Positions 53,390 to 64,000 of a stretch of DNA of 64,000 nt are shown piece by piece. Made by a program: the position numbers and the translations under genes. The stretch lies in NCBI RefSeq assembly GCF_041438805.1, contig NZ_CP109190.1:9114001-9178000 (forward strand), given 5' to 3'. Source of the DNA: Streptomyces sp. NBC_01707. GTDB taxonomy: Bacteria > Actinomycetota > Actinomycetes > Streptomycetales > Streptomycetaceae. Each line of letters starts with the position of its first letter. Positions within the stretch are counted from its first letter, which is position 1. A model generated the notes under the pieces. It was not told the DNA's origin. It made no database searches and saw only the letters and a list, made by a program, of their open reading frames with translations.

Positions 53390-54388
53390 TCAGGCTTCCT
53401 CGGCTGTGGCCAGTGCGTGGCCGGCGGCCGCGGGCGCCGGACGACTGTGCCGTGACCGGTGGGACAGCCAGGCGGCGACCAGGGCGCCCGAGATGTTGTG
53501 CCACACGGAGAACACCGCTGCCGGCAGGGCGGCCAGTGGGCTGAAGTGAGCGGTCGCCAGTGAGGCGGCAAGCCCCGAGTTCTGCATGCCGACCTCGAAA
53601 GCCATGGCGCGGCTGGCGGGTCGGCCGAGTCCGGTGGCCTTGCCCACGCCGTAGCCGAGAGCGAGTCCGAAGCCGTTGTGCAGCACGACGGCGATCAGCA
53701 CGCTGACAGCGGCCGATTTGATGGCACTGGCACTGCCTGCCACGACGGCGGCGACGATCGCGGCGACGGCCAGCGATGACAGCCAGGGCATCAGGCCCAG
53801 CACCCGGTCGACGAGTTTGCCCGCGACCAGCCGCACCAGCAGGCCACCGAGCACCGGAAGCAGCACCGTCTTGAGGATGTCCGTCATCATCGAACCGGCG
53901 TCCACCGGCAGGTACGCACCGGCCAGCAGCAGTGTGAGCGGCGGCGTCACCAGCGGGGCGAGCACGGTGGAGACGGTGGCGACGGAGACGGACAGGGCCA
54001 CGTCGCCGCGGGCCAGGAAGGTCACCACGTTCGACGCCGTGCCGCTCGGCGCGCAGCCGACCAGGATCACACCGGCGGCCAACTGTGGCGGGAGCCCGAG
54101 CAGATGGGCGATGAGCCAGCCGAGCCCCGGCATGATCACGTAGTGCGCGACCAGGCCGATCGCCACGGCCCACGGACGCTTCGCCACGCCTCTGAAGTCG
54201 AGTGGGGTCATCGTCAGTCCCATGCAGAACATGACGGTTCCCAGCAGGTAGGGAACCGAGCTCGTCCAGCCCGCGAACGCGCCGGGCGAGACGAGGCCGG
54301 CTGCGCCTGCCACGAGTACGAGGACGGGAAATACGGTGACGGCGCGTCGGGCTGCCTTGTCGCCGGACGCCGGGCGATCAGTGATCAT
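53390..54388 (-). CDS. Bile acid:sodium symporter (BASS) family transporter
   Basis: A 332-residue membrane protein with about nine to ten segments. MFCMGLTMTPLDFRGVAKRP, VGCAPSGTASNVVTFLARGD and MAFEVGMQNSGLAASLA are the BASS-family sodium-binding and crossover motifs. Bacterial members import organic anions such as pantothenate, pyruvate or sulfur compounds with Na+. The substrate here is unknown. No strong ribosome site precedes ATG 54388; a GTG at 54403 is possible. It follows the epoxide hydrolase gene by 169 bp on the same strand. Confidence 0.88.
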   Translation of the reverse strand: MITDRPASGDKAARRAVTVFPVLVLVAGAAGLVSPGAFAGWTSSVPYLLGTVMFCMGLTMTPLDFRGVAKRPWAVAIGLVAHYVIMPGLGWLIAHLLGLPPQLAAGVILVGCAPSGTASNVVTFLARGDVALSVSVATVSTVLAPLVTPPLTLLLAGAYLPVDAGSMMTDILKTVLLPVLGGLLVRLVAGKLVDRVLGLMPWLSSLAVAAIVAAVVAGSASAIKSAAVSVLIAVVLHNGFGLALGYGVGKATGLGRPASRAMAFEVGMQNSGLAASLATAHFSPLAALPAAVFSVWHNISGALVAAWLSHRSRHSRPAPAAAGHALATAEEA

Positions 54389-54557
54389 CTGTTCGGTTTG
54401 CACGAGCGTGATGAGACGATGCGGGCCCGGCCCTTCGCAACCGAGTCTCGATATATGGTCATGGTGTCCAGGATTCGAACGACAGCTTCCTGGGGAGATG
54501 CGAGCGGCAGCGCCCAGGAAGTGGTGCACGGGTTCGATCGGGGACCGGCGACCCGGG

Positions 54558-55769
54558 TCACTCGTGGTGGCTCCGTCGACGGTCTCTCAAGTCCCGGAAG
54601 AACTTCCTTACATCGCCGACCAGCAGGTCCGGCTGTTCCATGGCCGCGAAGTGCCCGCCGCGGTCGTACTGCGTCCATTGCACGATGTTGTTCGTCCGTT
54701 CCGCGATGTGCCGCAGCGGAATGAAGTTGTCCCGGGGGAAGTCGGCGAGCGCGGTCGGCGTCGTCGAGGGCTCAGGTGGTGTGCCCCGGTAGTCGGCATG
54801 CGCGCGCTCGTAGTAGATGCGGGCGGACGAGCCTGCTGTGCCGGTGAGCCAGTACAACATGACGTTGGTGAGCATCTGGTCGCGGTCGACGGCGTCTTCA
54901 GGGCGGTTGTCGGAGTCGGTCCACTCCTTGAACTTCTCCGCGATCCAGGCCAGTTGACCCACGGGTGAGTCGGTGAGGCTGTAGGCAAGGGTCTGCGGCC
55001 GGGTGGACTGGATGTCGGCGTAGCCCTGGCGGTCACTGCTCCATTCCCGCATGCGTTGCCAGGAGGCCAGCGTCCGCTCGCGCTCGGCGGGGCCCAGCGC
55101 GTCCAGGTCGTCCGCGCCGGGGTCCTGCGTCGCGGCTGAGTTCGGCAGCAGGTTCAGGTGTACGCCGATGACCTGGTCGGGCCGAATCCGGCCGAGCTCC
55201 CGGGAAATGGCTGCTCCCCAGTCACCGCCTTGTACCCCGTACCGTTCGTAGGCGAGGCGCTCCATCAGCTCGGCGAATGCGGCGGCGACCCGCTTGAACT
55301 CCCAGCCCCGTTCCCTGGTGGGCCCGGACAGCCCGAACCCGGGAATGTTCGGCAGCACCAGGTGGAACGCGTCGGCAGGGTCGCCGCCGTGGGCTCGCGG
55401 GTCGGTGAGAGGTCCGGCGACCTCGGCGAACTCGACGATCGAGCCCGGCCAGCCGTGCGTCATGACCAACGGGGTCGCATCAGGCTCCGGCGACCGGATG
55501 TGAGCGAAATGGATATTCGCCCCGTCGATCGTGGTGGTGAACTGCGGCCACTGGTTCAGCCGGGACTCCGCGGCACGCCAGTCGTACTCGTGCCGCCAGT
55601 ACCTCACGAGTTCCTCGAGGTAGTCGCGTGGAATGCCGTATGCCCAGCCCACTCCGGGCAGTTCGTCCGGCCAGCGGGTGCGGTCGAGACGCTCGTGGAG
55701 ATCGTCCAGCTCGTCTTGGTGGATGTCGATGCGGAACGGGTGGATGGTCTCGTCGGTCGACGTCGTCAT
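54558..55769 (-). CDS. Epoxide hydrolase (microsomal-type, alpha/beta hydrolase fold)
   Basis: A 403-residue enzyme. The N-terminal EHN lid region (IHPFRIDIHQDELDDLHERL; RWPDELPGVGWAYG) precedes the hydrolase domain with the oxyanion motif HGWPGS (105-110), the nucleophile Asp183 in GGDWGA, and the terminal catalytic His in YDRGGHFAAME. It opens epoxides to diols. ATG 55769 is preferred over longer frames because it begins MTTSTDETIHPF. Confidence 0.92.
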   Translation of the reverse strand: MTTSTDETIHPFRIDIHQDELDDLHERLDRTRWPDELPGVGWAYGIPRDYLEELVRYWRHEYDWRAAESRLNQWPQFTTTIDGANIHFAHIRSPEPDATPLVMTHGWPGSIVEFAEVAGPLTDPRAHGGDPADAFHLVLPNIPGFGLSGPTRERGWEFKRVAAAFAELMERLAYERYGVQGGDWGAAISRELGRIRPDQVIGVHLNLLPNSAATQDPGADDLDALGPAERERTLASWQRMREWSSDRQGYADIQSTRPQTLAYSLTDSPVGQLAWIAEKFKEWTDSDNRPEDAVDRDQMLTNVMLYWLTGTAGSSARIYYERAHADYRGTPPEPSTTPTALADFPRDNFIPLRHIAERTNNIVQWTQYDRGGHFAAMEQPDLLVGDVRKFFRDLRDRRRSHHE

Positions 55770-55878
55770 GCCTGCACATGCTACGTACCGGCGCTCCGGA
55801 AGCGCGGACGTCGTCCGTGCCCACCGTGTCCCCGACAACGAATGCCGGACCGCCCGGCCGGCGTCTGCCTCGGGTGGG

Positions 55879-56625
55879 TCACAGTCTCCGGGCGACTTCC
55901 GCCGCGGTGTCGCAGACGGTGGGGGCGAAGGTGCGCAGTTGTTCCTCGGTGACCAGGAAGGTCAGTGAGGATACGGAGACCGCGGCTCTGGGATAGCCGT
56001 CCCGGTCCAGTACGGGGGCCGCGATCGAGCAGACCGATTCGTCGGCCTCCTCGTACTCGGACGCATATCCCTGCTCGCGTACGCGTGCCAGTTCGTCGTC
56101 CAGCCGTCCGCGGTCGGTGATGGTGTGGGTGGTGCGTTCGGGGAGGCCCGCGCGGTCCAGGAGGGCGGCCGCCTCCGCCGGGGGAAGGTAGGCGAGCAGC
56201 GCCTTTCCGGCGGCGCTGGCGTGCAGGGGTACGGGCATGCCGACGCCGGTGGCGATGCGGTACGCGTGGCCGGGCTCGACCTTGTGCGTATAGGTGGCGA
56301 ACTCGCCGCCCAGGACGGCGAGATGGACTGCCTGCCCCAGGCGTTGCTGGAGTGCGCGCAGGGTCGATTCGATTCCGACGGTGTCGTCCGCGAGCACCTG
56401 GGCGGCCATGGATCGTAGTTGGGGCCCCACGCCGTAGCTGCCGCCGCCCTCCGGGACGACGTACCCCTCCTCGATCAGTGTGCCGAGCAGGCGGTGCGTG
56501 GTGGCCTTGGGGATACCGGACTCCTCGGCGATCTCGCTGAGTTTGCGCGCGGAGTCGAGCCGGGCCACGGCATGCAGAACCCGCAAGGTCTTCGCGGCAG
56601 AGTTCGCCGATTTCCCGTGATCCAT
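55879..56625 (-). CDS. IclR family regulator of the divergent PTS-like operon
   Basis: A 248-residue regulator: winged helix at about 8-70 (TLRVLHAVARLDSARKLSEI, GIPKATTHRLLGTL) and IclR effector domain with GMPVPLHASAAGKALLAYLP. GGAGGG lies just before ATG 56625. It faces the amidohydrolase gene across 133 bp that contain two related palindromes, its probable operators. It most likely senses the sugar-acid substrate or an intermediate of the downstream pathway, in the manner of KdgR-type IclR proteins. Confidence 0.9.
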   Translation of the reverse strand: MDHGKSANSAAKTLRVLHAVARLDSARKLSEIAEESGIPKATTHRLLGTLIEEGYVVPEGGGSYGVGPQLRSMAAQVLADDTVGIESTLRALQQRLGQAVHLAVLGGEFATYTHKVEPGHAYRIATGVGMPVPLHASAAGKALLAYLPPAEAAALLDRAGLPERTTHTITDRGRLDDELARVREQGYASEYEEADESVCSIAAPVLDRDGYPRAAVSVSSLTFLVTEEQLRTFAPTVCDTAAEVARRL

Positions 56626-56659
56626 TGACCCTCCGTGCATCAGCCAGCTAGATTCCAGT

Positions 56660-56676
56660 AATCCGTACAGCGGAAT
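56660..56676. promoter_or_regulatory. IclR operator candidate, site 1
   Basis: AATCCGTACAGCGGAAT contains the inverted halves TCCG and CGGA around TACAG. It is nearer the iclR start. Confidence 0.6.
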
Positions 56677-56680
56677 GATA

Positions 56681-56696
56681 GTCCACTGTACGGAAC
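56681..56696. promoter_or_regulatory. IclR operator candidate, site 2
   Basis: GTCCACTGTACGGAAC read on the minus strand is GTTCCGTACAGTGGAC, nearly the same as site 1. Together the two sites also form a larger inverted repeat TCCGTACAG-N15-CTGTACGGA. Confidence 0.6.
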
Positions 56697-56758
56697 GCGG
56701 CGGTTTCTCGCTGCCGCGTGTCTGCCTCCCCACCCCCGCAAGGGAAAGGCGGCCATCC

Positions 56759-57970
56759 ATGGCTGTACACCACTCCGCAATCCCTTCACAAGATCCGGAT
56801 CCGTTCGACCTCGTGATCACCGGTGCCAATCGCCCGAACCCGGACACGGGCGAGCTCCAGCCGGTCGAACTCGCCGTCCGCGACGGCCGGATCGCCCACA
56901 TCGGCGGGGCCGGGAGTCTGGCGGCGGCGCCGGCGGCGCAGCGGCACGATGCAGGCGGAGATCTGCTCGCCCCGGGCCTCGTCGACCTCCATGCCCACGT
57001 CTACCACGCCAGTACCGGGCTGGGACTCGAGGCCGACCGGGCGGGAGTCGAACAGGGCGTCACCACCCTCGTGGACGCGGGCAGCTGCGGCAGCGACCAC
57101 TGGGACCACTTCGCCGGTCACGTCGTCGATGCCGCCAGGACCCGCGTGCTCAGCTGGCTGAACATCTCCCGGCACGGCCTCGTCAACGGTGTGCGTGAAC
57201 TCGCCGGCGGTGCCGCTGACATCGATGTCGACGCCACCGCCGGACTGCTCCTGCGCCATCGCGACCGCATCCGCGGCCTCAAGGTCCGGATGAGCAGCTC
57301 CGTACTGGGCGACAGCGGCCTCCTGCCGCTGAAGGTGGCCAAGGAGACGGCCGCCCGCCTGCGGTCCGAGATCGGACACGTGCCCGTGATGGTGCATGTG
57401 GGCAACGCACCGCCCGCTTTGGGGGACGTGCTCGACCTTCTCGACGAGGGCGACGTGGTGACCCACGCGTTCCACGGGAAGACGGGTGGCCTGTTCGGCG
57501 GCGGCGCGCAGCCGCTGCCGCAGGCCCGCGCCGCGCTCGAACGGGGCGTTCGGCTGGACGTCGGCCACGGCAGCGCCAGCTTCTCGTTCCGGACGGCGGA
57601 ACGGGCGCTCGACGCGGGGATCCGCCCGTACACCGCAGGCTCGGATCTGCATCTGCGCAACGTCGAAGGGCCGGTCCACTCGCTGGCCACGACGCTGAAC
57701 AAACTGCTCGTGCTCGGGCTGCCCCTCCACGAGGTCCTCGACTGCGCGACCCGGCGGCCGGCAGAAGTGCTCGGCCTCGCGGGTGAGTTGGCGGACCTCG
57801 GGGTCGGTTCCTGCGCCGACGTCAGCCTGTTCCGCCTCGATGCGGAGGAAGCGGGACTGACCGACGCCGAGGGCGAGACCCGCACCGCGCGGCGCCGGCT
57901 GGTGCCTGTCGCCGTCGTGCGGGCAGGGCTGCTCACCCACCTCCACGACCACCGAAAGGCCGCTGCGTGA
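56759..57970 (+). CDS. Amidohydrolase/deacetylase family metallohydrolase (cog3964, EF0837-like)
   Basis: A 403-residue TIM-barrel metallohydrolase. The first metal motif HAHVYH is near residue 81, the bridging Lys in GLKVRMSSS near 180, further His ligands in VMVHVGNAP and THAFHGK, and the catalytic Asp region DVGHGSASF near 263. Members of this group, wrongly called dihydroorotases or adenine deaminases in the past, hydrolyse acyl esters or amides of hydroxy acids. In this operon it may remove an acyl group from the substrate before DgaE acts. First gene of the run; the next start overlaps its stop by four bases. Confidence 0.9.
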   Translation: MAVHHSAIPSQDPDPFDLVITGANRPNPDTGELQPVELAVRDGRIAHIGGAGSLAAAPAAQRHDAGGDLLAPGLVDLHAHVYHASTGLGLEADRAGVEQGVTTLVDAGSCGSDHWDHFAGHVVDAARTRVLSWLNISRHGLVNGVRELAGGAADIDVDATAGLLLRHRDRIRGLKVRMSSSVLGDSGLLPLKVAKETAARLRSEIGHVPVMVHVGNAPPALGDVLDLLDEGDVVTHAFHGKTGGLFGGGAQPLPQARAALERGVRLDVGHGSASFSFRTAERALDAGIRPYTAGSDLHLRNVEGPVHSLATTLNKLLVLGLPLHEVLDCATRRPAEVLGLAGELADLGVGSCADVSLFRLDAEEAGLTDAEGETRTARRRLVPVAVVRAGLLTHLHDHRKAAA

Positions 57971-58374
57971 CCGACCGATCCTTGTCTTCCCTGATCGACC
58001 TCCTCGCCGAGACGGTGGCACAGACCTCCCGACCGGTGTCCGACGACGACCGGGCAGAACTGCTCGTGCTGCTCACGCTCGTCGAGCAGCAGGCGGCCGA
58101 CGAGACGCTGTCCCCGACCCAGGAGCGGCGGCTCGCCATCGCCGTCCACGCGCTGGCTTTCGTGCGCAGGATGCGGGACGGCGAGCGCCTCGACGACCTG
58201 GGCCCCGAAGTCTTCGCCGAAGTGCCCGAAGAACGACTGCGCGATGTGAGGCAGATGCTCGCCCTCTACTGCACGCCGCGTGCCCAGACCCCGAGCGAGA
58301 CCGAAGTGCTCCTGTTCGCGCTGCACTTCGAGGCGGCCCGGCAGTCGACGTCCGCGCTCGACCTTCCCGCGTGA
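57967..58374 (+). CDS. Stand-alone PRD-like (PTS regulation domain) protein
   Basis: A 135-residue helical protein. IAVHALAFVRRM at about 58-69 and LLFALHFEAARQ at about 118-129 hold the spaced histidines expected of a PRD, the domain phosphorylated by HPr or EIIB in antiterminators. There is no DNA- or RNA-binding domain attached. Equivalent small PRD proteins accompany SFCGS/DUF4310-4312 genes in enterobacteria. It overlaps the amidohydrolase stop (GTGA). It may relay the phosphorylation state to another protein; function is inferred. Confidence 0.7.
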   Translation: MTDRSLSSLIDLLAETVAQTSRPVSDDDRAELLVLLTLVEQQAADETLSPTQERRLAIAVHALAFVRRMRDGERLDDLGPEVFAEVPEERLRDVRQMLALYCTPRAQTPSETEVLLFALHFEAARQSTSALDLPA

Positions 58375-58421
58375 CGCACCGCGCGTACCCCACCCCCGAC
58401 AGACCCTGAAGGAGCACCAGC

Positions 58422-58787
58422 ATGACTGTGAAGATCGTGATAGGTCACCGCCTCGGCAAGGGCGACAGCGTGGCCGAGGGCATCCGCAAGGCCGGCGCCG
58501 AGCCCGTCCTGATCCCCGGCCCCGGCGCCGACATGAAGGTCGGCGACATCATGGCTGCCGAGGGCGCCGCGCTCGGCATCTCGTTCTGCGGCAGCGGCGG
58601 CGCCGGAGCCGTCACGGCCAAGGCGAAGTACGGGCACGACATCGAGTTCGGCATGCGCTCGGTTCAGGCGGGCATCACCGCCGTCGAACAGGGCCGCACC
58701 GTGCTGGGGTTCGGCTTCATGGACACCGAGGAGCTCGGCCGGGCCATCGCCGGGGCGCTGCTGAAGAAGCTGGGTGAGCAGGCATGA
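58422..58787 (+). CDS. SFCGS family glycine-rich protein
   Basis: A 121-residue protein with the family hallmark LGISFCGSGGAGAVTAKAK at about 51-69. It has an alternating strand/helix pattern (KIVIGHRLGKGDSVAEGIR; GAEPVLIPGPG) like an EIIB or Rossmann-type domain. Cys56 sits in a Gly/Ser-rich loop, comparable to the phosphocysteine loop of some PTS EIIB proteins, a suggestion not proven. It is encoded between PRD and DUF4312 genes, as in other bacteria with this locus. A GAAGGAG site precedes the ATG. Confidence 0.85.
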   Translation: MTVKIVIGHRLGKGDSVAEGIRKAGAEPVLIPGPGADMKVGDIMAAEGAALGISFCGSGGAGAVTAKAKYGHDIEFGMRSVQAGITAVEQGRTVLGFGFMDTEELGRAIAGALLKKLGEQA

Positions 58788-59119
58788 GGGAGACGCTGCT
58801 CACGGTCCGTGTCACCGGCACCGGCCCGACCCGCGAGAGGGCCTTCGCCGCCGCGATGCAGCAGGTCCGGCAGGAGGTCGGCAAGCAGGTCGACGGCGTC
58901 TGCTACCGCGTCGAACCGCAGTCGCTGGAGGTGGCGTCCGCCACCGAGTACCGCTGGACGGAGCGCTTCCTGGGTCTGCTCTTCGCCCGTGCGCGCCGCC
59001 GCTTCGAGCTGAACCTGCTGGTCCGGGTGCGCGCCGGCCACCTCGACCTGGAGGGACTCGACTTCATCGTCCGCGAGGAGCGCCTCACGCCGCTCCAGCA
59101 CGCGCTCCACATGAGGTGA
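58784..59119 (+). CDS. DUF4312 family protein
   Basis: A 111-residue soluble protein starting MRETLLTVRVTGTGPTRERA and ending RLTPLQHALHMR. It overlaps the SFCGS stop by four bases. The family always occurs with SFCGS, DUF4310 and DUF4311 proteins and its role is unknown. The C-terminal His pair might be a phosphoacceptor if this is an EIIA analogue, but there is no direct sign of that. Confidence 0.85.
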   Translation: MRETLLTVRVTGTGPTRERAFAAAMQQVRQEVGKQVDGVCYRVEPQSLEVASATEYRWTERFLGLLFARARRRFELNLLVRVRAGHLDLEGLDFIVREERLTPLQHALHMR

Positions 59120-59126
59120 ACCGGCC

Positions 59127-59918
59127 ATGAATCAGACACTCACCATTCTGCTGGAATCCATCGTCGTCGGCGGGCTGATCGGATTCGCCGCCTCGGCGGG
59201 CGTGGCCCGCATGTTCCACGCGCCGAAGGTCCAGGGCATGGGCGCCTTCCGTACGCTGGGAGAGCTCAACGCCTGCGAGAACGACCCGGTCGCCCACTTC
59301 TCCTTCGGCCTCGGCTTCTTCTTCAACGCCTGGGCCGGAGCCGTCGGCACAGGCGCCCTGAGCTCCGACGTCGACCACCGGATCGTGCCCCACTGGGCCG
59401 CGGCGCTGTCCATGGTCAAGAACCGCAACCTCACCGAGACACTGCACAACCCGCGGCGCATGGCGTTCGTCGGTACGGGTGTGGGCATCGTGCTCGTCTC
59501 GGCGCTCAACACGACTGCCGCGTCGATCCCCGACTCGCTCCAGCGCATCGCCGCCGACGTCCTTGGGCCCGCGTCCGAGTGGCTCATCAACCCTGTGATG
59601 CCGATCGTCTTCTGGATGGCGGCCGTCGACGCCGGCCGCCGGACCGGCGCGTGGGGCACCGTCCTCGGCGGTGTCGCGCACATCGTCATGGGGAACGCGG
59701 TGCCCGGCATCGTCCTCGGCATCGTCATCGGCAAGGCGTTGGACGACCTCGGCTGGACCCGCCTGACCCGCGTCCTCGCCGGCGCGGTCGCGGTCCTCTT
59801 CATCGCCAGCGCCTTCCTGCGAGGCGTCGACCTGGACATCCTGGAGCAGATGAAGGTCCACGCCCCGAACTGGTTGCATCAACTGCACGAAGCCACCGGC
59901 ACCGAACCCACCGATTGA
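59127..59918 (+). CDS. DUF4311 family integral membrane protein
   Basis: A 263-residue protein with about six membrane segments (IVVGGLIGFAASAGVARMF; FSFGLGFFFNAWAGAVGTGA; NPVMPIVFWMAAVDAG). The gene follows DUF4312 by seven bases. With DUF4310 it is the likely membrane channel of the PTS-like uptake system. No similarity to classical EIIC or EIID is evident by eye, although the split into two membrane subunits recalls the mannose-type PTS. Confidence 0.87.
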   Translation: MNQTLTILLESIVVGGLIGFAASAGVARMFHAPKVQGMGAFRTLGELNACENDPVAHFSFGLGFFFNAWAGAVGTGALSSDVDHRIVPHWAAALSMVKNRNLTETLHNPRRMAFVGTGVGIVLVSALNTTAASIPDSLQRIAADVLGPASEWLINPVMPIVFWMAAVDAGRRTGAWGTVLGGVAHIVMGNAVPGIVLGIVIGKALDDLGWTRLTRVLAGAVAVLFIASAFLRGVDLDILEQMKVHAPNWLHQLHEATGTEPTD

Positions 59919-59929
59919 GGGGCACCTTC

Positions 59930-60652
59930 ATGACGCACGCGACCGCCAGTGCCGCCTCGGCCGGTTCCGACGCCGGGGCGCCGACATCCTCGAAGGTGAA
60001 CGTGCCGCAGGAGGGCAGCTTCTGGCTCTCCGAATGGGCCTTCCCGCTCTTCGTGGCGATGCTGGCCTCAGGCATCTTCACCGGAACACACCTCTACTAC
60101 GTCTACCACACCGGTACGTTCAGCGACATCGCCGTCACCGCTCTGCTCAAGGCCGGTATGGAAAACGGGAGTTACGGCGCCGCTGCGGCCTTCGGCGCCG
60201 GATTCCTGTTCGCCCGGATCATCGAAGGACCGATGGTCGGCATCCTCGACATCGGGGGCTCCCTGCAGACCGGCGTGGGCATCGGCATCCCCGCGATGCT
60301 CCTGGCGGCCGGCATCACCGCGCCCCTGGAGAACTTCTGGCTGGCCCTGCCCACCGGAGCACTCTGCGGCGCGCTCATCGGCCTGCTGATCATCGCCATA
60401 CGCCGGGCGACGTTGAACTCACCGGGCAACACGTCGACCTTCGGAGCCGACGTCATGATGGGCGCCGGCAACTCCGCGGGGCGCTACCTGGGACCGCTGG
60501 TCATCATCGCGGCTGCCACCGCCTCCCTCCCGGTCGGCATCGGCTCCACCATCGGCGCGCTCCTCTTCTACCTGTGGAAGAAGCCGCTGACCGGCGGAGC
60601 CATCCTCGGCGCGATGGTCTTCGGCGTCATCTTCCCCATCCCCGGCAGCTGA
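59930..60652 (+). CDS. DUF4310 family integral membrane protein
   Basis: A 240-residue protein with a 30-residue Ala/Ser/Thr-rich cytoplasmic leader and about six membrane segments. LDIGGSLQTGVGIGIPAMLL and FGADVMMGAGNSAGRYLGPL are conserved Gly-rich motifs that may line the pore. ATG 59930 lies eleven bases after the DUF4311 stop. It is the presumed partner of DUF4311. Confidence 0.87.
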   Translation: MTHATASAASAGSDAGAPTSSKVNVPQEGSFWLSEWAFPLFVAMLASGIFTGTHLYYVYHTGTFSDIAVTALLKAGMENGSYGAAAAFGAGFLFARIIEGPMVGILDIGGSLQTGVGIGIPAMLLAAGITAPLENFWLALPTGALCGALIGLLIIAIRRATLNSPGNTSTFGADVMMGAGNSAGRYLGPLVIIAAATASLPVGIGSTIGALLFYLWKKPLTGGAILGAMVFGVIFPIPGS

Positions 60653-60669
60653 GAGACAGGAGAACGACC

Positions 60670-61785
60670 ATGGCAGATTTCTACGACACCCTGGGCCTCA
60701 CACCCGCCGTCAACGCCAACGGGAAGATGACCGCCCTGGGAGGCAGCAGGCTCTCCGAGGAGACCATCGAGACGATGGGCGCGGCGGCAAGGGCACATGT
60801 CGTCATGGACGACCTGATGGTCGCCGCCGGTCGTGAACTGGCCGCCGCCGCTGGTACCGAGGACGCGTGCCCGACAACCGGAGCGGCCTCCGGCGTCGCC
60901 ATAGCCGTCGCCGCCCTCGTCGCCGGAACGGACGTCGCCCGCATCGAGGCGCTTCCGGACGCGGGGGATCGTCCCTGCGAAGTGATCCTCCCCAAGGGCC
61001 ACGCCGTCCACTTCGGCGCGCCCCTCACCCAGATGATCGCGCTCGGCGGCGGCCGCGCAGTCGAGGCCGGGTCGGCCAACAAGGTCCGCGCGGCCCACCT
61101 CGAAGGTGCGATCACCGACCGCACCGTCGCCCTGATGTACGTACAGTCGCACCATGCCGTACAGAAGGGCATGGTCTCGCTGGCGGAGACGGTGGCCGTC
61201 GGACGTGAGCACGGCATTCCGGTCATCGTCGACGCGGCGGCCGAGGAAGACCTGCGGCGATGGCCCGACACCGGCGCCGACCTGGTCGTCTACAGCGGAG
61301 GCAAGGCCATCGGCGGCCCCGCCTCCGGCTTCATCTGCGGTTCGTCGGAGCTCATCGCCGCATGCCGAGCCCAGTACGCGGGGATCGGCCGGCCGATGAA
61401 GGTCGGCAAGGAGACCGTCGCCGGCCTGGTGCAGGCGGTACGCACGTACGGAAGGGCGGCCACCACCTCCGAAGGGGAACGGCAGCGCACCCGAATGCAC
61501 GCTCTCGCCGCGCGGCTCGGCGCCCTGCCCGGGATCGAAGCGCGCGTGGTGCAGGACGAGGCGGGCCGGCAGATCTTCCGCACGGAACTCACCGTCCACC
61601 CGGAGGCCGCCGGGCGTGACGCCGTGTCACTGGCGGCCGAACTCGTCGCGGGAACCCCCGGCATCCACCTCCGCGACCACCACGCATCCTCGGGGCGACT
61701 GGCCGTCGATCCGCGTCCCCTGTCCGACGCCGAGGAAGAGATCCTGGTCCGCCGCCTGACCGAGCTGCTCCCCGCCCGGGACTGA
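60670..61785 (+). CDS. dgaE: DgaE-type pyridoxal phosphate-dependent ammonia-lyase
   Basis: A 371-residue SelA-like PLP enzyme. The cofactor lysine is Lys212 in VVYSGGKAIGGPASG, and the phosphate-binding CPTTGAASGVAIA loop is at about 67-79. DgaE of Salmonella converts D-glucosaminate-6-phosphate to 2-keto-3-deoxygluconate-6-phosphate and ammonia. AGGAG precedes ATG 60670. The aldolase downstream completes the route. The exact sugar acid in this organism is not known; the gene name is by family. Confidence 0.85.
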   Translation: MADFYDTLGLTPAVNANGKMTALGGSRLSEETIETMGAAARAHVVMDDLMVAAGRELAAAAGTEDACPTTGAASGVAIAVAALVAGTDVARIEALPDAGDRPCEVILPKGHAVHFGAPLTQMIALGGGRAVEAGSANKVRAAHLEGAITDRTVALMYVQSHHAVQKGMVSLAETVAVGREHGIPVIVDAAAEEDLRRWPDTGADLVVYSGGKAIGGPASGFICGSSELIAACRAQYAGIGRPMKVGKETVAGLVQAVRTYGRAATTSEGERQRTRMHALAARLGALPGIEARVVQDEAGRQIFRTELTVHPEAAGRDAVSLAAELVAGTPGIHLRDHHASSGRLAVDPRPLSDAEEEILVRRLTELLPARD

Positions 61786-61903
61786 TCGGGCGCCACCGCA
61801 CGGCGCACTGAAGCTCCCCGTCCGGCAACGCCGCGAGACGGGGCCGCACATCCGCACGGGCCGGCCCCTCGCCCCCACAAAACTCCGTAAGGAAGGTATC
61901 GCT

Positions 61904-62188
61904 GTGCCCGTCGTCGAACGACGCCTCGTGGTCACGGAAGAGTCCGGGCTCCACGCCCGGCCCGCCGCCGCATTCGTCCAAGCCGCCACCCGCACCGACG
62001 CCCAGGTGACGGTCGCCCGCGCCGACGCGGGCCCCGAGGCCAGGCCCGTCAATGCCCGCAGCGTGCTCTCCCTGCTCGCCCTCAGCGTCCGATGCGGCGA
62101 GGAGATCGTGCTGCGCGCGGACGGCGTCGACGAGGAAACGGCCCGACAGGCCGTCGACGCCCTTGCCGCCATCGCCGCGCCCGCCTGA
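61904..62188 (+). CDS. ptsH: HPr family phosphocarrier protein
   Basis: A 94-residue PTS carrier. His17 in SGLHARPAAAF is the EI-phosphorylated residue. The ARSVLSLLALSV segment holds the Ser that aligns with the regulatory Ser46 of Gram-positive HPr. GTG 61904 follows GGAAGG by seven bases. Its location inside a catabolic operon, next to EI, rather than in a general ptsH locus suggests a dedicated phosphate supply for the transporter upstream. Confidence 0.92.
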   Translation: MPVVERRLVVTEESGLHARPAAAFVQAATRTDAQVTVARADAGPEARPVNARSVLSLLALSVRCGEEIVLRADGVDEETARQAVDALAAIAAPA

Positions 62189-62219
62189 CCGCACGACCGC
62201 TCACGAACGGAAGACCCCC

Positions 62220-62828
62220 ATGCCCCTCACCCCCGCCGTACAGGACGTCATCGACCGACTCGCCGCCGCCCGCGCCGTGCCGACCGTACGGGCCGCCGAC
62301 GCCGACAGCGCCCACGCCCTTGCCGACCAGCTCGTCGCGGCCGGCATCACCGCTTTCGAATTCACCGCGACCACGCCGGGTTGGGAGGGGCTGGTGGAGC
62401 ACTGGACGGGCAGCAGGCCCGACGTACTGGTCGGGCTCGGCACGGTCACCTCGGCCGAGATCGCCGAAACCGGCCTGGCCTCCGGTGCCCGTTTCCTCGT
62501 CAGCCCCTTCCAGGTGCCGGAAGTACGACCGGTCGCCGACGACGCGGACCGGCTCTTCGTCGAGGGCGGCCACAGCCCCACCGAGATCAGGGCCGCCGCA
62601 CTCCGAGGCGTCGCCAAGCTCTACCCCGCGCATGTGGGCGGCATCCCGTACCTGAAGTCCCTGCTGTCCGTGCTCCCGGGGGCGCGCATCATGGCGACGG
62701 GCGGCGTCGGTGTCGAACAGGCGGGGGAGTGGCTGGCGGCCGGTGCCTTCTCGGTGAGCATCGGGAGCGACCTCACCGCTCACGGGAATGTGCGCGAGGC
62801 GGTGGAGCGGCTGCAGCAGCAGCTGTAG
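62220..62828 (+). CDS. KDPG/KDGP aldolase (Eda/DgaF-type)
   Basis: A 202-residue class I aldolase. FEFTATTPGWE at about 46-56 contains the catalytic Glu, and the Schiff-base Lys133 is in GVAKLYPAHVGG. GLGTVTSAE and MATGGVGVEQ complete the phosphate site. It splits 2-keto-3-deoxygluconate-6-phosphate into pyruvate and glyceraldehyde-3-phosphate, the product of the DgaE reaction being its expected substrate. It lies 31 bp after the HPr gene. Confidence 0.9.
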   Translation: MPLTPAVQDVIDRLAAARAVPTVRAADADSAHALADQLVAAGITAFEFTATTPGWEGLVEHWTGSRPDVLVGLGTVTSAEIAETGLASGARFLVSPFQVPEVRPVADDADRLFVEGGHSPTEIRAAALRGVAKLYPAHVGGIPYLKSLLSVLPGARIMATGGVGVEQAGEWLAAGAFSVSIGSDLTAHGNVREAVERLQQQL

Positions 62829-63005
62829 CGACGTGGGTGAGGGCCGCCCCACCTCGACTGCCGCGCGTCCGCGCCCCGGCCCGCCGAGCGGAGTGGCCGG
62901 GTCGGGAGCAGAGCATCGGGCGGTCACACCACCACGGGGCACGGCCGGGACGCGGTCAGGAATCCGGCGCGGGGGCGGAACCTCCGCACCATCGGGGACG
63001 GTTAC

Positions 63006-64000
63006 ATGGAGACAACACTGCAGGGCGTCGGTGTCAGCCACGGATGGGCGATCGGCGAAGTGCGGCACATGGGCGCGGCGGACCTGGAGCCGCCTGCCGA
63101 GCAGGTTCCGGCCGAGGAGGTGGAGCGTGAGCAGGGTCGCGCCCGTCGAGCGGCCGAGGCGGTCGCGGCAGACCTCGTCGCCCGTGGCAACCAGGCCGAC
63201 GGCGAGGCGCAGGCGGTCCTCGAAGCGCAGGCCATGATGGCACAGGACCCCGAGCTCATGGCGGACGCCGAGCGGCGCATCGCGGCCGGCAGCTCGGCGG
63301 AGCGAGGGATCCACGACGCCTTCGCGGCGTACCGCGCGCTGCTCGCTCATGCGGGCGAGTACCTGGCGGGACGGGTTGCGGACCTCGACGACGTCCGCAA
63401 CCGGATCGTGGCCCGCCTGATGGACGTGCCGATGCCCGGCGTGCCGGACAGCGACTCGGCGTACATCCTTGTCGCGCGCGACCTGGCCCCGGCGGACACC
63501 GCACTGCTCGACCCGACACTCGTGCTCGGTTTCGTCACCCAGGAGGGCAGTCCCACCAGCCACAGCGCGATCCTTGCGCGGGCACTGGGCATACCGGCGG
63601 TGGTCGCACTGCCCGGCGTGGCCGAGCTGGCCGAGGGAACCGTCGTCGCGGTCGACGGCCGCACCGGTGAGGTCTTCGTCGAGCCCAGCGCCGAGGCGCG
63701 GGCCGAGATGGAGAGTGCCGCCGCGCAGCACAAGGCCGCGCTCGCCGTCTCGACCGGACGCGGCACCACGTCGGACGGACACAGGGTGCCGCTCCTGGCG
63801 AACATCGGCGGACCGGGTGACGTAGCGGCCGCACTGGAGGCGGGCGCGGAGGGCATCGGGCTGTTCCGTACGGAGTTCCTCTTCCTGGACGACAGCAAGC
63901 AGGCGCCGTCCGAGGAGAAGCAGGTCGAGGCCTATCGTGCGGTGCTGGAAGCCTTTACCGGGAGCCGAGTCGTGGTACGGGTGCTGGACGCGGGCGCCGA
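63006..64000 (+). CDS. ptsI: PTS enzyme I, phosphoenolpyruvate-protein phosphotransferase (partial, runs off window)
   Basis: About 331 N-terminal residues are present. The active-site His186 is in QEGSPTSHSAILARALG, at the position equivalent to His189 of E. coli EI, and the start of the PEP-binding barrel (EGIGLFRTEFLFLDD) follows at about 285-299. It takes phosphate from PEP and passes it to HPr. The N-terminal helical HPr-binding region (about 22-145) is intact. The gene is 177 bp after the aldolase and may use its own promoter. Confidence 0.93.
   Translation, partial: METTLQGVGVSHGWAIGEVRHMGAADLEPPAEQVPAEEVEREQGRARRAAEAVAADLVARGNQADGEAQAVLEAQAMMAQDPELMADAERRIAAGSSAERGIHDAFAAYRALLAHAGEYLAGRVADLDDVRNRIVARLMDVPMPGVPDSDSAYILVARDLAPADTALLDPTLVLGFVTQEGSPTSHSAILARALGIPAVVALPGVAELAEGTVVAVDGRTGEVFVEPSAEARAEMESAAAQHKAALAVSTGRGTTSDGHRVPLLANIGGPGDVAAALEAGAEGIGLFRTEFLFLDDSKQAPSEEKQVEAYRAVLEAFTGSRVVVRVLDAGA

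Follow-up and report, generated by a model that had tools for sequence, protein, structure and literature searches.

A Streptomyces operon of DUF4310–DUF4312, SFCGS and PTS proteins that may import and degrade an amino-sugar acid

The operon and its relatives

We analyzed a 64,000-nucleotide stretch of DNA from Streptomyces sp. NBC_01707 (NZ_CP109190.1, positions 9,114,001 to 9,178,000; hereafter the window), at the 3′ end of which lie ten plus-strand genes behind a divergent IclR-family gene (Table 1). These genes join five proteins of uncharacterised families, a stand-alone PRD protein, SFCGS, DUF4312, DUF4311 and DUF4310, to enzymes of sugar-acid breakdown and to HPr and Enzyme I (EI) of the phosphotransferase system (PTS). 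Open reading frames together with Pfam and NCBIfam matches confirm the operon proposed in a preliminary description of this DNA; the 4-base overlaps mentioned there occur at two junctions, but not between most of the genes. Eight of the nine plus-strand proteins scanned match a named family in Pfam or NCBIfam, and the ninth, the PRD protein, matches EF_0829 only (1.8e-6, below cut-off). NCBIfam cut-offs were passed for EF_0830, EF_0832, EF_0833, TIGR01437 and PRK09237, the last by the amidohydrolase (389.4 bits against a cut-off of 371; PDB relatives 8wzy, 2ogj and 2ics), whereas scores fell short for EF_0829, EF_0831, EF_0837 and the equivalog of the true D-glucosaminate-6-phosphate lyase. 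The window end truncates EI, which in the genome continues for 673 bases to give a protein of 555 residues with all three EI domains.

Table 1. Features of the operon and its upstream region (window coordinates; a negative gap is an overlap with the preceding gene)
Feature	Position	Strand	Gap to preceding gene (bases)	Basis or remark
IclR-family regulator, divergent	55879..56625	-		Pfam IclR_C and HTH_IclR
Promoter-like site TTGACC-18-TAGATT, in the divergent gap	56625..56654	+		Consensus match only
Amidohydrolase/deacetylase-family metallohydrolase (EF_0837-like)	56759..57970	+	133 (divergent, to IclR gene)	NCBIfam PRK09237
Stand-alone small PRD-domain protein (EF_0829-like), proposed phosphocarrier	57967..58374	+	-4	Invariant His61, His120
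SFCGS glycine-rich protein (EF_0830), RpiB/LacAB fold	58422..58787	+	47	Invariant Cys56
DUF4312 (EF_0831-like), small, no predicted membrane segment	58784..59119	+	-4	
DUF4311 (EF_0832), integral membrane protein	59127..59918	+	7	Four invariant His
DUF4310 (EF_0833), integral membrane protein	59930..60652	+	11	
DgaE-type lyase	60670..61785	+	17	PDB and NCBIfam relatives, phosphate-site Arg
HPr phosphocarrier, GTG start	61904..62188	+	118	LHARP site intact
KDPG/KHG-type aldolase	62220..62828	+	31	Pfam Aldolase above cut-off; NCBIfam eda below cut-off
PTS Enzyme I	63006..64000, runs on to 64673-equivalent	+	177	Active-site GSPTSHSAI present

A DUF4311 profile run against 84,980 species genomes gave at least 597 candidates and at least 496 confirmed places. 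The 79 best loci, sampled as the best DUF4311 matches, were combined with plasmid and Streptomyces loci into a non-redundant set of 87, window included, which we annotated with profiles built in this analysis; several of the contigs are short. The gene set is conserved far beyond chance, because the same order PRD-SFCGS-DUF4312-DUF4311-DUF4310 is kept in 84 of the 87 loci, and a PRD protein is present in all 84 that hold SFCGS together with DUF4310–4312. The exceptions are L019 from Aeromonas caviae, L073 from Lactococcus raffinolactis and L077, in which DUF4312 was not found. In L019 DUF4310 was not found beyond a match of 35 residues, and neither a lyase nor an amidohydrolase matched; in L073 no PRD, SFCGS or DUF4312 was found beside DUF4311 and DUF4310; neither locus contains runs of N. 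The companion enzymes recur almost as widely (amidohydrolase in 82 loci, DgaE-type lyase in 81, aldolase in 73).

Among Streptomyces and its wider phylum the cassette is rare: DUF4310 scores above cut-off in one of 396 Actinomycetota genomes, that of the host itself, with one further genome below cut-off, and in six of 392 genomes of the genus, host included. The E. coli genome of the control set gave no DUF4310 match. A related locus lies in Streptomyces sp. PsTaAH-137 (NZ_QLLY01000009.1). The aldolase differs between lineages. The KDPG profile matches in 14 of the 87 loci and the KDGP profile in 61; actinobacterial cassettes carry an Eda-type KDPG aldolase and most others a member of the KDGP aldolase family, an apparent swap of different enzymes.

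HPr, Enzyme I and the substrate of the lyase

An HPr gene on the same strand belongs to the gene run in 36 of the 87 loci, comprising all 16 actinobacterial loci and 20 of the 71 others, and an EI gene in 11 (the window, eight Paenibacillus, Bartonella and E. ratti), only one of them among the 16 actinobacterial loci. This is the survey of co-occurrence with DUF4310–4312 that the preliminary description had proposed; its view of both genes as a feature of the operon holds for HPr, which is constant in actinobacterial loci, but not for EI, which is confined to this genome and a minority of others. HPr stands before the aldolase in Streptomyces and after it in Cryobacterium, Glaciihabitans and Brevibacillus; in Paenibacillus HPr-EI, or HPr alone, precedes the regulator, and in Bartonella the two are fused. 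L017 and L018, 56 kb plasmids of Bartonella sp. from bat faeces, bear the cassette with the fusion gene. The adjacency of HPr is unlikely to be due to chance, because the host genome has only three HPr genes in 9.9 Mb. At least one further HPr lies elsewhere in 15 of the 16 wholly searched genomes whose cassette carries one. The Streptomyces relatives G816, G817 and G818 each have two HPr genes, counting that of the cassette. Only E. ratti lacks a second copy; its single HPr and single EI above cut-off both adjoin the cassette.

The window HPr is 50% identical to the two other HPr proteins of the host, whereas the window EI and its counterpart elsewhere in the genome share 85.5% identity and form a close pair of paralogues; because of this difference the operon HPr looks dedicated and the operon EI looks like a recent addition. 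A BglG/MtlR-type activator was found in 68 of the 71 non-actinobacterial loci (all three activators scanned have PRD domains, and two an EIIA domain) and in none of the 16 actinobacterial loci, 13 of which have an IclR gene instead. Actinobacterial loci thus have no regulator of the PRD/EIIA type, yet they keep HPr and the small PRD protein. HPr is therefore probably not there for the regulator, and its target would be the small PRD protein or the permease.

The lyase passes the NCBIfam cut-off for its wider family (TIGR01437; 416.4 bits against 385.3) and misses that of the D-glucosaminate-6-phosphate lyase equivalog (368.6 against 600). Lys213 of the window enzyme is presumably the lysine that binds pyridoxal phosphate. 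In the pathway outlined in the available text of PMC9529869, D-glucosaminate enters through a PTS as its 6-phosphate, is converted by the lyase DGL (DgaE) to 2-keto-3-deoxygluconate 6-phosphate, and is then split by DgaF; in a manually docked DGL model in the same text, the phosphate is held by Arg301, Arg332 and Arg346. The window lyase has Arg304, Arg335 and Arg349 at these places, conserved in 79 of 79, 78 of 78 and 78 of 78 relatives that cover the site. Because these phosphate-site arginines are kept, the substrate of the lyase is very likely phosphorylated. The Arg that binds the carboxylate in DGL is replaced by Ser225, and for this reason, together with the missed equivalog score, the substrate may be something other than glucosaminate itself. 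No kinase gene was recognised within the operon. With single-sequence references, a kinase of the 2-keto-3-deoxygluconate (KDG) type was seen in the fetched DNA of 8 of the 87 loci and not in that of the other 79, other kinase types lying outside the search. Among solved structures the lyase is closest to PDB 8t7j (E 4.9e-122), deposited as a putative selenocysteine synthase, a name that is probably misleading.

The five core proteins and the EII families

The PRD protein keeps both histidines of PRD domains. His61, Arg68, Glu113 and His120 are present in 88 of 88 members, redundant loci kept in, and both His align with the His of both PRDs of LicT. HPr phosphorylates His of LicT PRD2. The family profile matches the structure 3nuf at 2.9e-33 and LicT at 2.3e-5 (whole chain) and 0.0019 (best domain). 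When PF00874 matches were accepted up to an E-value of 1, 46 of 50 members matched, the best at 1.1e-9; the window protein alone gave no PF00874 match, and two cassette members scanned singly reached 20.7 and 19.8 against the Pfam cut-off of 23. From the similarity of family and structure and from the two conserved His, we classify the window protein as a PRD domain.

SFCGS has a single invariant Cys, Cys56, present in 88 of 88 members on the same redundant count; with the His of the PRD protein it gives the operon the phosphorylatable-type His and Cys pair of EII proteins, as far as conservation can tell. Comparison of SFCGS with RpiB by hhalign gave 92.6 in local and 63.5 in global mode, with Cys56 aligned to the catalytic Cys of RpiB in a glycine-rich loop. 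With ten YhfU sequences the comparison of SFCGS with DUF2620 reached 86.8 (local) and 88.5 (global), with three it reached 1.3, and DUF2620 against RpiB gave 56.2 (local) and 8.2 (global); other families stayed at or below 0.2 in global and 3.4 in local mode. A permissive Pfam scan of 37 members (E up to 10) matched LacAB_rpiB in 16 (best 0.006) and DUF2620 in 18 (best 0.0065), alongside the chance-level families Cecropin (10 of 37, best 0.014) and DUF1521 (4, best 0.0072). The claim is carried by the fold match, because a PDB sequence search with the SFCGS profile did not find RpiB. We conclude that the fold of SFCGS is that of RpiB/LacAB and that the protein is kin to YhfU/DUF2620, both findings being new here. 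After the fold match we rejected homology of SFCGS to EIIB, an idea suggested by its invariant Cys; it may still act like an EIIB in function.

DUF4310 and DUF4311 each have several hydrophobic segments, and in DUF4311 His 57, 84, 107 and 254 are invariant (91 of 91). Neither family matched the EIIC profiles of mannose (29 sequences), galactitol/ascorbate (29) or glucitol (16) type by hhalign, with probabilities below 1 where positive controls gave 100, nor did DUF4312 match the EIIC profiles tested; kinship with the glucitol PTS (SrlA/SrlE/SrlB) was likewise rejected for want of an hhalign match. EIIC families were absent from the Pfam matches of 43 DUF4311 and 42 DUF4310 members; for EIIC of the glucose, fructose and lactose types the comparison consisted of this Pfam scan and one single sequence. 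Pfam gave no EIIA or EIIB family for SFCGS members, and for DUF4312 and the PRD protein none appeared in the 25 listed of 41 and 64 families; hhalign against single E. coli EIIA and EIIB sequences reached at most 3.4. Nothing credible was found in PDB sequence searches with DUF4310, DUF4311 and DUF4312 profiles, and a predicted DUF4311 structure (mean predicted local distance difference test score, pLDDT, 85.9) had no useful PDB match and resembled no solved fold. Profile comparison gave no match of DUF4310 and DUF4311 with each other or with YhfT. A weak match to DUF2232, an uncharacterised membrane family, was seen in 29 of 43 DUF4311 members (best E 0.0005). A reading of DUF4310, DUF4311, DUF4312 and SFCGS as hidden members of a known EII family is thus not supported: DUF4310, DUF4311 and DUF4312 matched no EII profile tested, and SFCGS is RpiB-like by fold.

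No classical EII set adjoins the operon: Pfam found no EII gene among the seven larger open reading frames in 11 kb after EI or the two genes before the IclR gene. The whole host genome has no EII-Sor, EIIC-GAT or EII-GUT gene (mannose, galactitol/ascorbate and glucitol types), in a search that left aside PF02378 and other EIIC families. With single-sequence references, at least 13 of the 87 loci have a classical EII gene in their fetched DNA and 74 do not. Six loci from Enterococcus and Lactococcus (L016, L069, L073, L079, L083 and L089) have an EIIC gene (PF02378 in L016) and a MupG-type gene within or adjoining the cassette; their presence suggests a link to the recycling of peptidoglycan sugars in those loci.

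The genes that flank the operon are unrelated to it, with no visible link. After EI come AlkZ-like, zinc dehydrogenase, WYL regulator, thiolase, PEP-mutase family, DUF6299 and DNA polymerase III alpha genes; before the IclR gene, on the minus strand, an SBF-type sodium/bile-acid-family symporter and an epoxide hydrolase occupy 53390–54529 and 54558–55838. Rfam matched nothing over 55000–64000, and a terminator scan gave a single match, on the minus strand at 55844–55858, where shuffled sequence gave a mean of 1.7.

A proposed import mechanism and its relation to known systems

We suggest as the most likely mechanism, though with the balance of judgment about even, that the operon imports an amino-sugar acid, or its N-acyl form, by PTS-type group translocation through proteins of no EII family tested. 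Phosphate would pass from phosphoenolpyruvate through EI to the operon HPr, and from there to His61/His120 of the stand-alone PRD protein, which would take the place of EIIA. The next carrier would most likely be SFCGS, through Cys56 in its glycine-rich loop, or else DUF4312, and would hand the phosphate to the sugar acid that the membrane pair DUF4310/DUF4311 binds. Once inside, the 6-phospho amino-sugar acid would lose ammonia through DgaE, and its 2-keto-3-deoxy product would be split by the aldolase; the amidohydrolase would remove an acyl group before or after entry. The phosphotransfer steps beyond HPr, transport by DUF4310 and DUF4311, and the substrate are all inferred. The preliminary description had proposed an unrecognised PTS permease; the PTS coupling in that proposal is now supported and strengthened by the recurrence of HPr, and at times of EI, in several genera and arrangements, by the His of the PRD protein, the phosphate-site Arg of DgaE and the lack of three EIIC families. 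More tentatively, the operon may represent a PTS permease family beyond the known EII, with the PRD protein as EIIA, the RpiB-like Cys protein as EIIB and DUF4310/DUF4311 as channel, the yhf operon of E. coli as a second such family, and PRDs acting as both relay and regulators.

The main rival is a secondary transporter gated by the PTS, in which DUF4310 and DUF4311 import the unmodified substrate, the PRD protein is a switch phosphorylated by HPr, and a kinase encoded elsewhere makes the 6-phosphate. PRDs are described as PTS-controlled regulatory domains in the available text of PMC8560693, the membrane pair matches no EIIC profile tested while DUF4311 weakly matches DUF2232, SFCGS is not EIIB-like, and eight loci do have a KDG-type kinase. 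That kinase was nevertheless not seen in the fetched DNA of the remaining 79 loci, where other types were not searched, and a PRD protein found without exception beside SFCGS and DUF4310–4312 looks like a functional subunit and less like a switch that could be dispensed with; we consider this explanation rather unlikely. Group translocation also competes with the idea that HPr and EI merely hitchhike, or serve general carbon-catabolite control, in an operon without PTS chemistry. The close resemblance of the window EI to its paralogue, the position of the only ptsHI of E. ratti beside the cassette and the lack of HPr in 51 of the 87 loci would fit such an arrangement; the presence of HPr in every actinobacterial gene run, the divergence of the window HPr from the two other copies and the invariant His of the PRD protein do not, and we think it the least probable of the readings considered here.

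SFCGS could instead be an enzyme of the RpiB superfamily that isomerises or epimerises a sugar phosphate after import, the five genes then encoding a transporter plus an enzyme with no phosphorelay. Its fold and catalytic-type Cys are those of RpiB/LacAB isomerases. However, SFCGS is shorter (121 residues against 141–172 in the RpiB set compared), and in the hhalign alignment the conserved ring-opening His of RpiB and the neighbouring conserved Asn, as given in the available text of PMC3212906, are replaced by Glu and Gln in the window protein. The isomerase reading moreover leaves HPr and the PRD protein unexplained. Nor is the substrate suited to it, since by established chemistry an aldose-ketose isomerase needs an aldehyde or ketone, which a sugar acid lacks; we regard an isomerase as improbable.

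Group translocation by this operon, if true, would add an EII family with no found sequence relation to the known ones, give functions to five widespread uncharacterised families (in at least 496 confirmed places), assign phosphate carriage to a free-standing PRD domain and to a protein of RpiB type, and open a route into the uncharacterised yhf operon. No paper on DUF4310, DUF4311, DUF4312, SFCGS or the locus tags was found in the titles and abstract openings of the open-licence literature; OG1RF_10478, a target of MafR, is not part of the DUF4310–4312/SFCGS system, judging from the available text of PMC10773906.

The proposal shares with classical PTS EII families a His carrier, a Cys protein, a membrane pair and a supply of HPr and EI, but no sequence relation to them was found. 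The D-glucosaminate system of Salmonella, DgaABCD-DgaE-DgaF, has in common with the Streptomyces operon a lyase of the DgaE family whose phosphate-site Arg are the same, together with an aldolase and a link to the PTS (available text of PMC9529869). Salmonella takes up its substrate through the PTS DgaABCD, which the title of a reference cited in the article assigns to the mannose family, whereas the Streptomyces operon has five unrelated proteins, its own HPr and EI and an amidohydrolase, in a genome with no EII-Sor gene. A further known relative is the EF_0829–EF_0837/AHA_3910–3915 set (TIGR03577–03580, TIGR03582 and TIGR03583, labelled "hypoth_equivalog"), of which we examined the Enterococcus and Klebsiella versions: the five core genes, the amidohydrolase and the DgaE-type lyase are common to both, while Streptomyces adds HPr and here EI, has IclR in place of the PRD activator, and an Eda-type aldolase in place of the KDGP family.

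The E. coli yhf module YhfY (PRD)-YhfU (DUF2620)-YhfT offers a parallel, with a small PRD, an RpiB-like protein with a Cys/Gly loop, and a membrane protein. We compared the E. coli K-12 yhf operon (L106, 5936–13345), a second locus (L111, 6294–14657) and further yhf-type loci (L113–L119); among nine such loci (L111–L119) YhfT is present in all and a PRD relative in six, and a Cetobacterium operon has PRD, DUF2620 and YhfT in a row. A DUF2620 gene is also held by 7 of 39 cassette-bearing genomes. The two systems differ in that YhfT is unrelated to DUF4310/4311 by profile, the enzymes of the yhf operon are others, and the second PRD His is absent from YhfY and from the Cetobacterium PRD. Because two unrelated membrane parts share both kinds of soluble partner, the comparison suggests that the PRD and RpiB-like proteins form a reusable unit.

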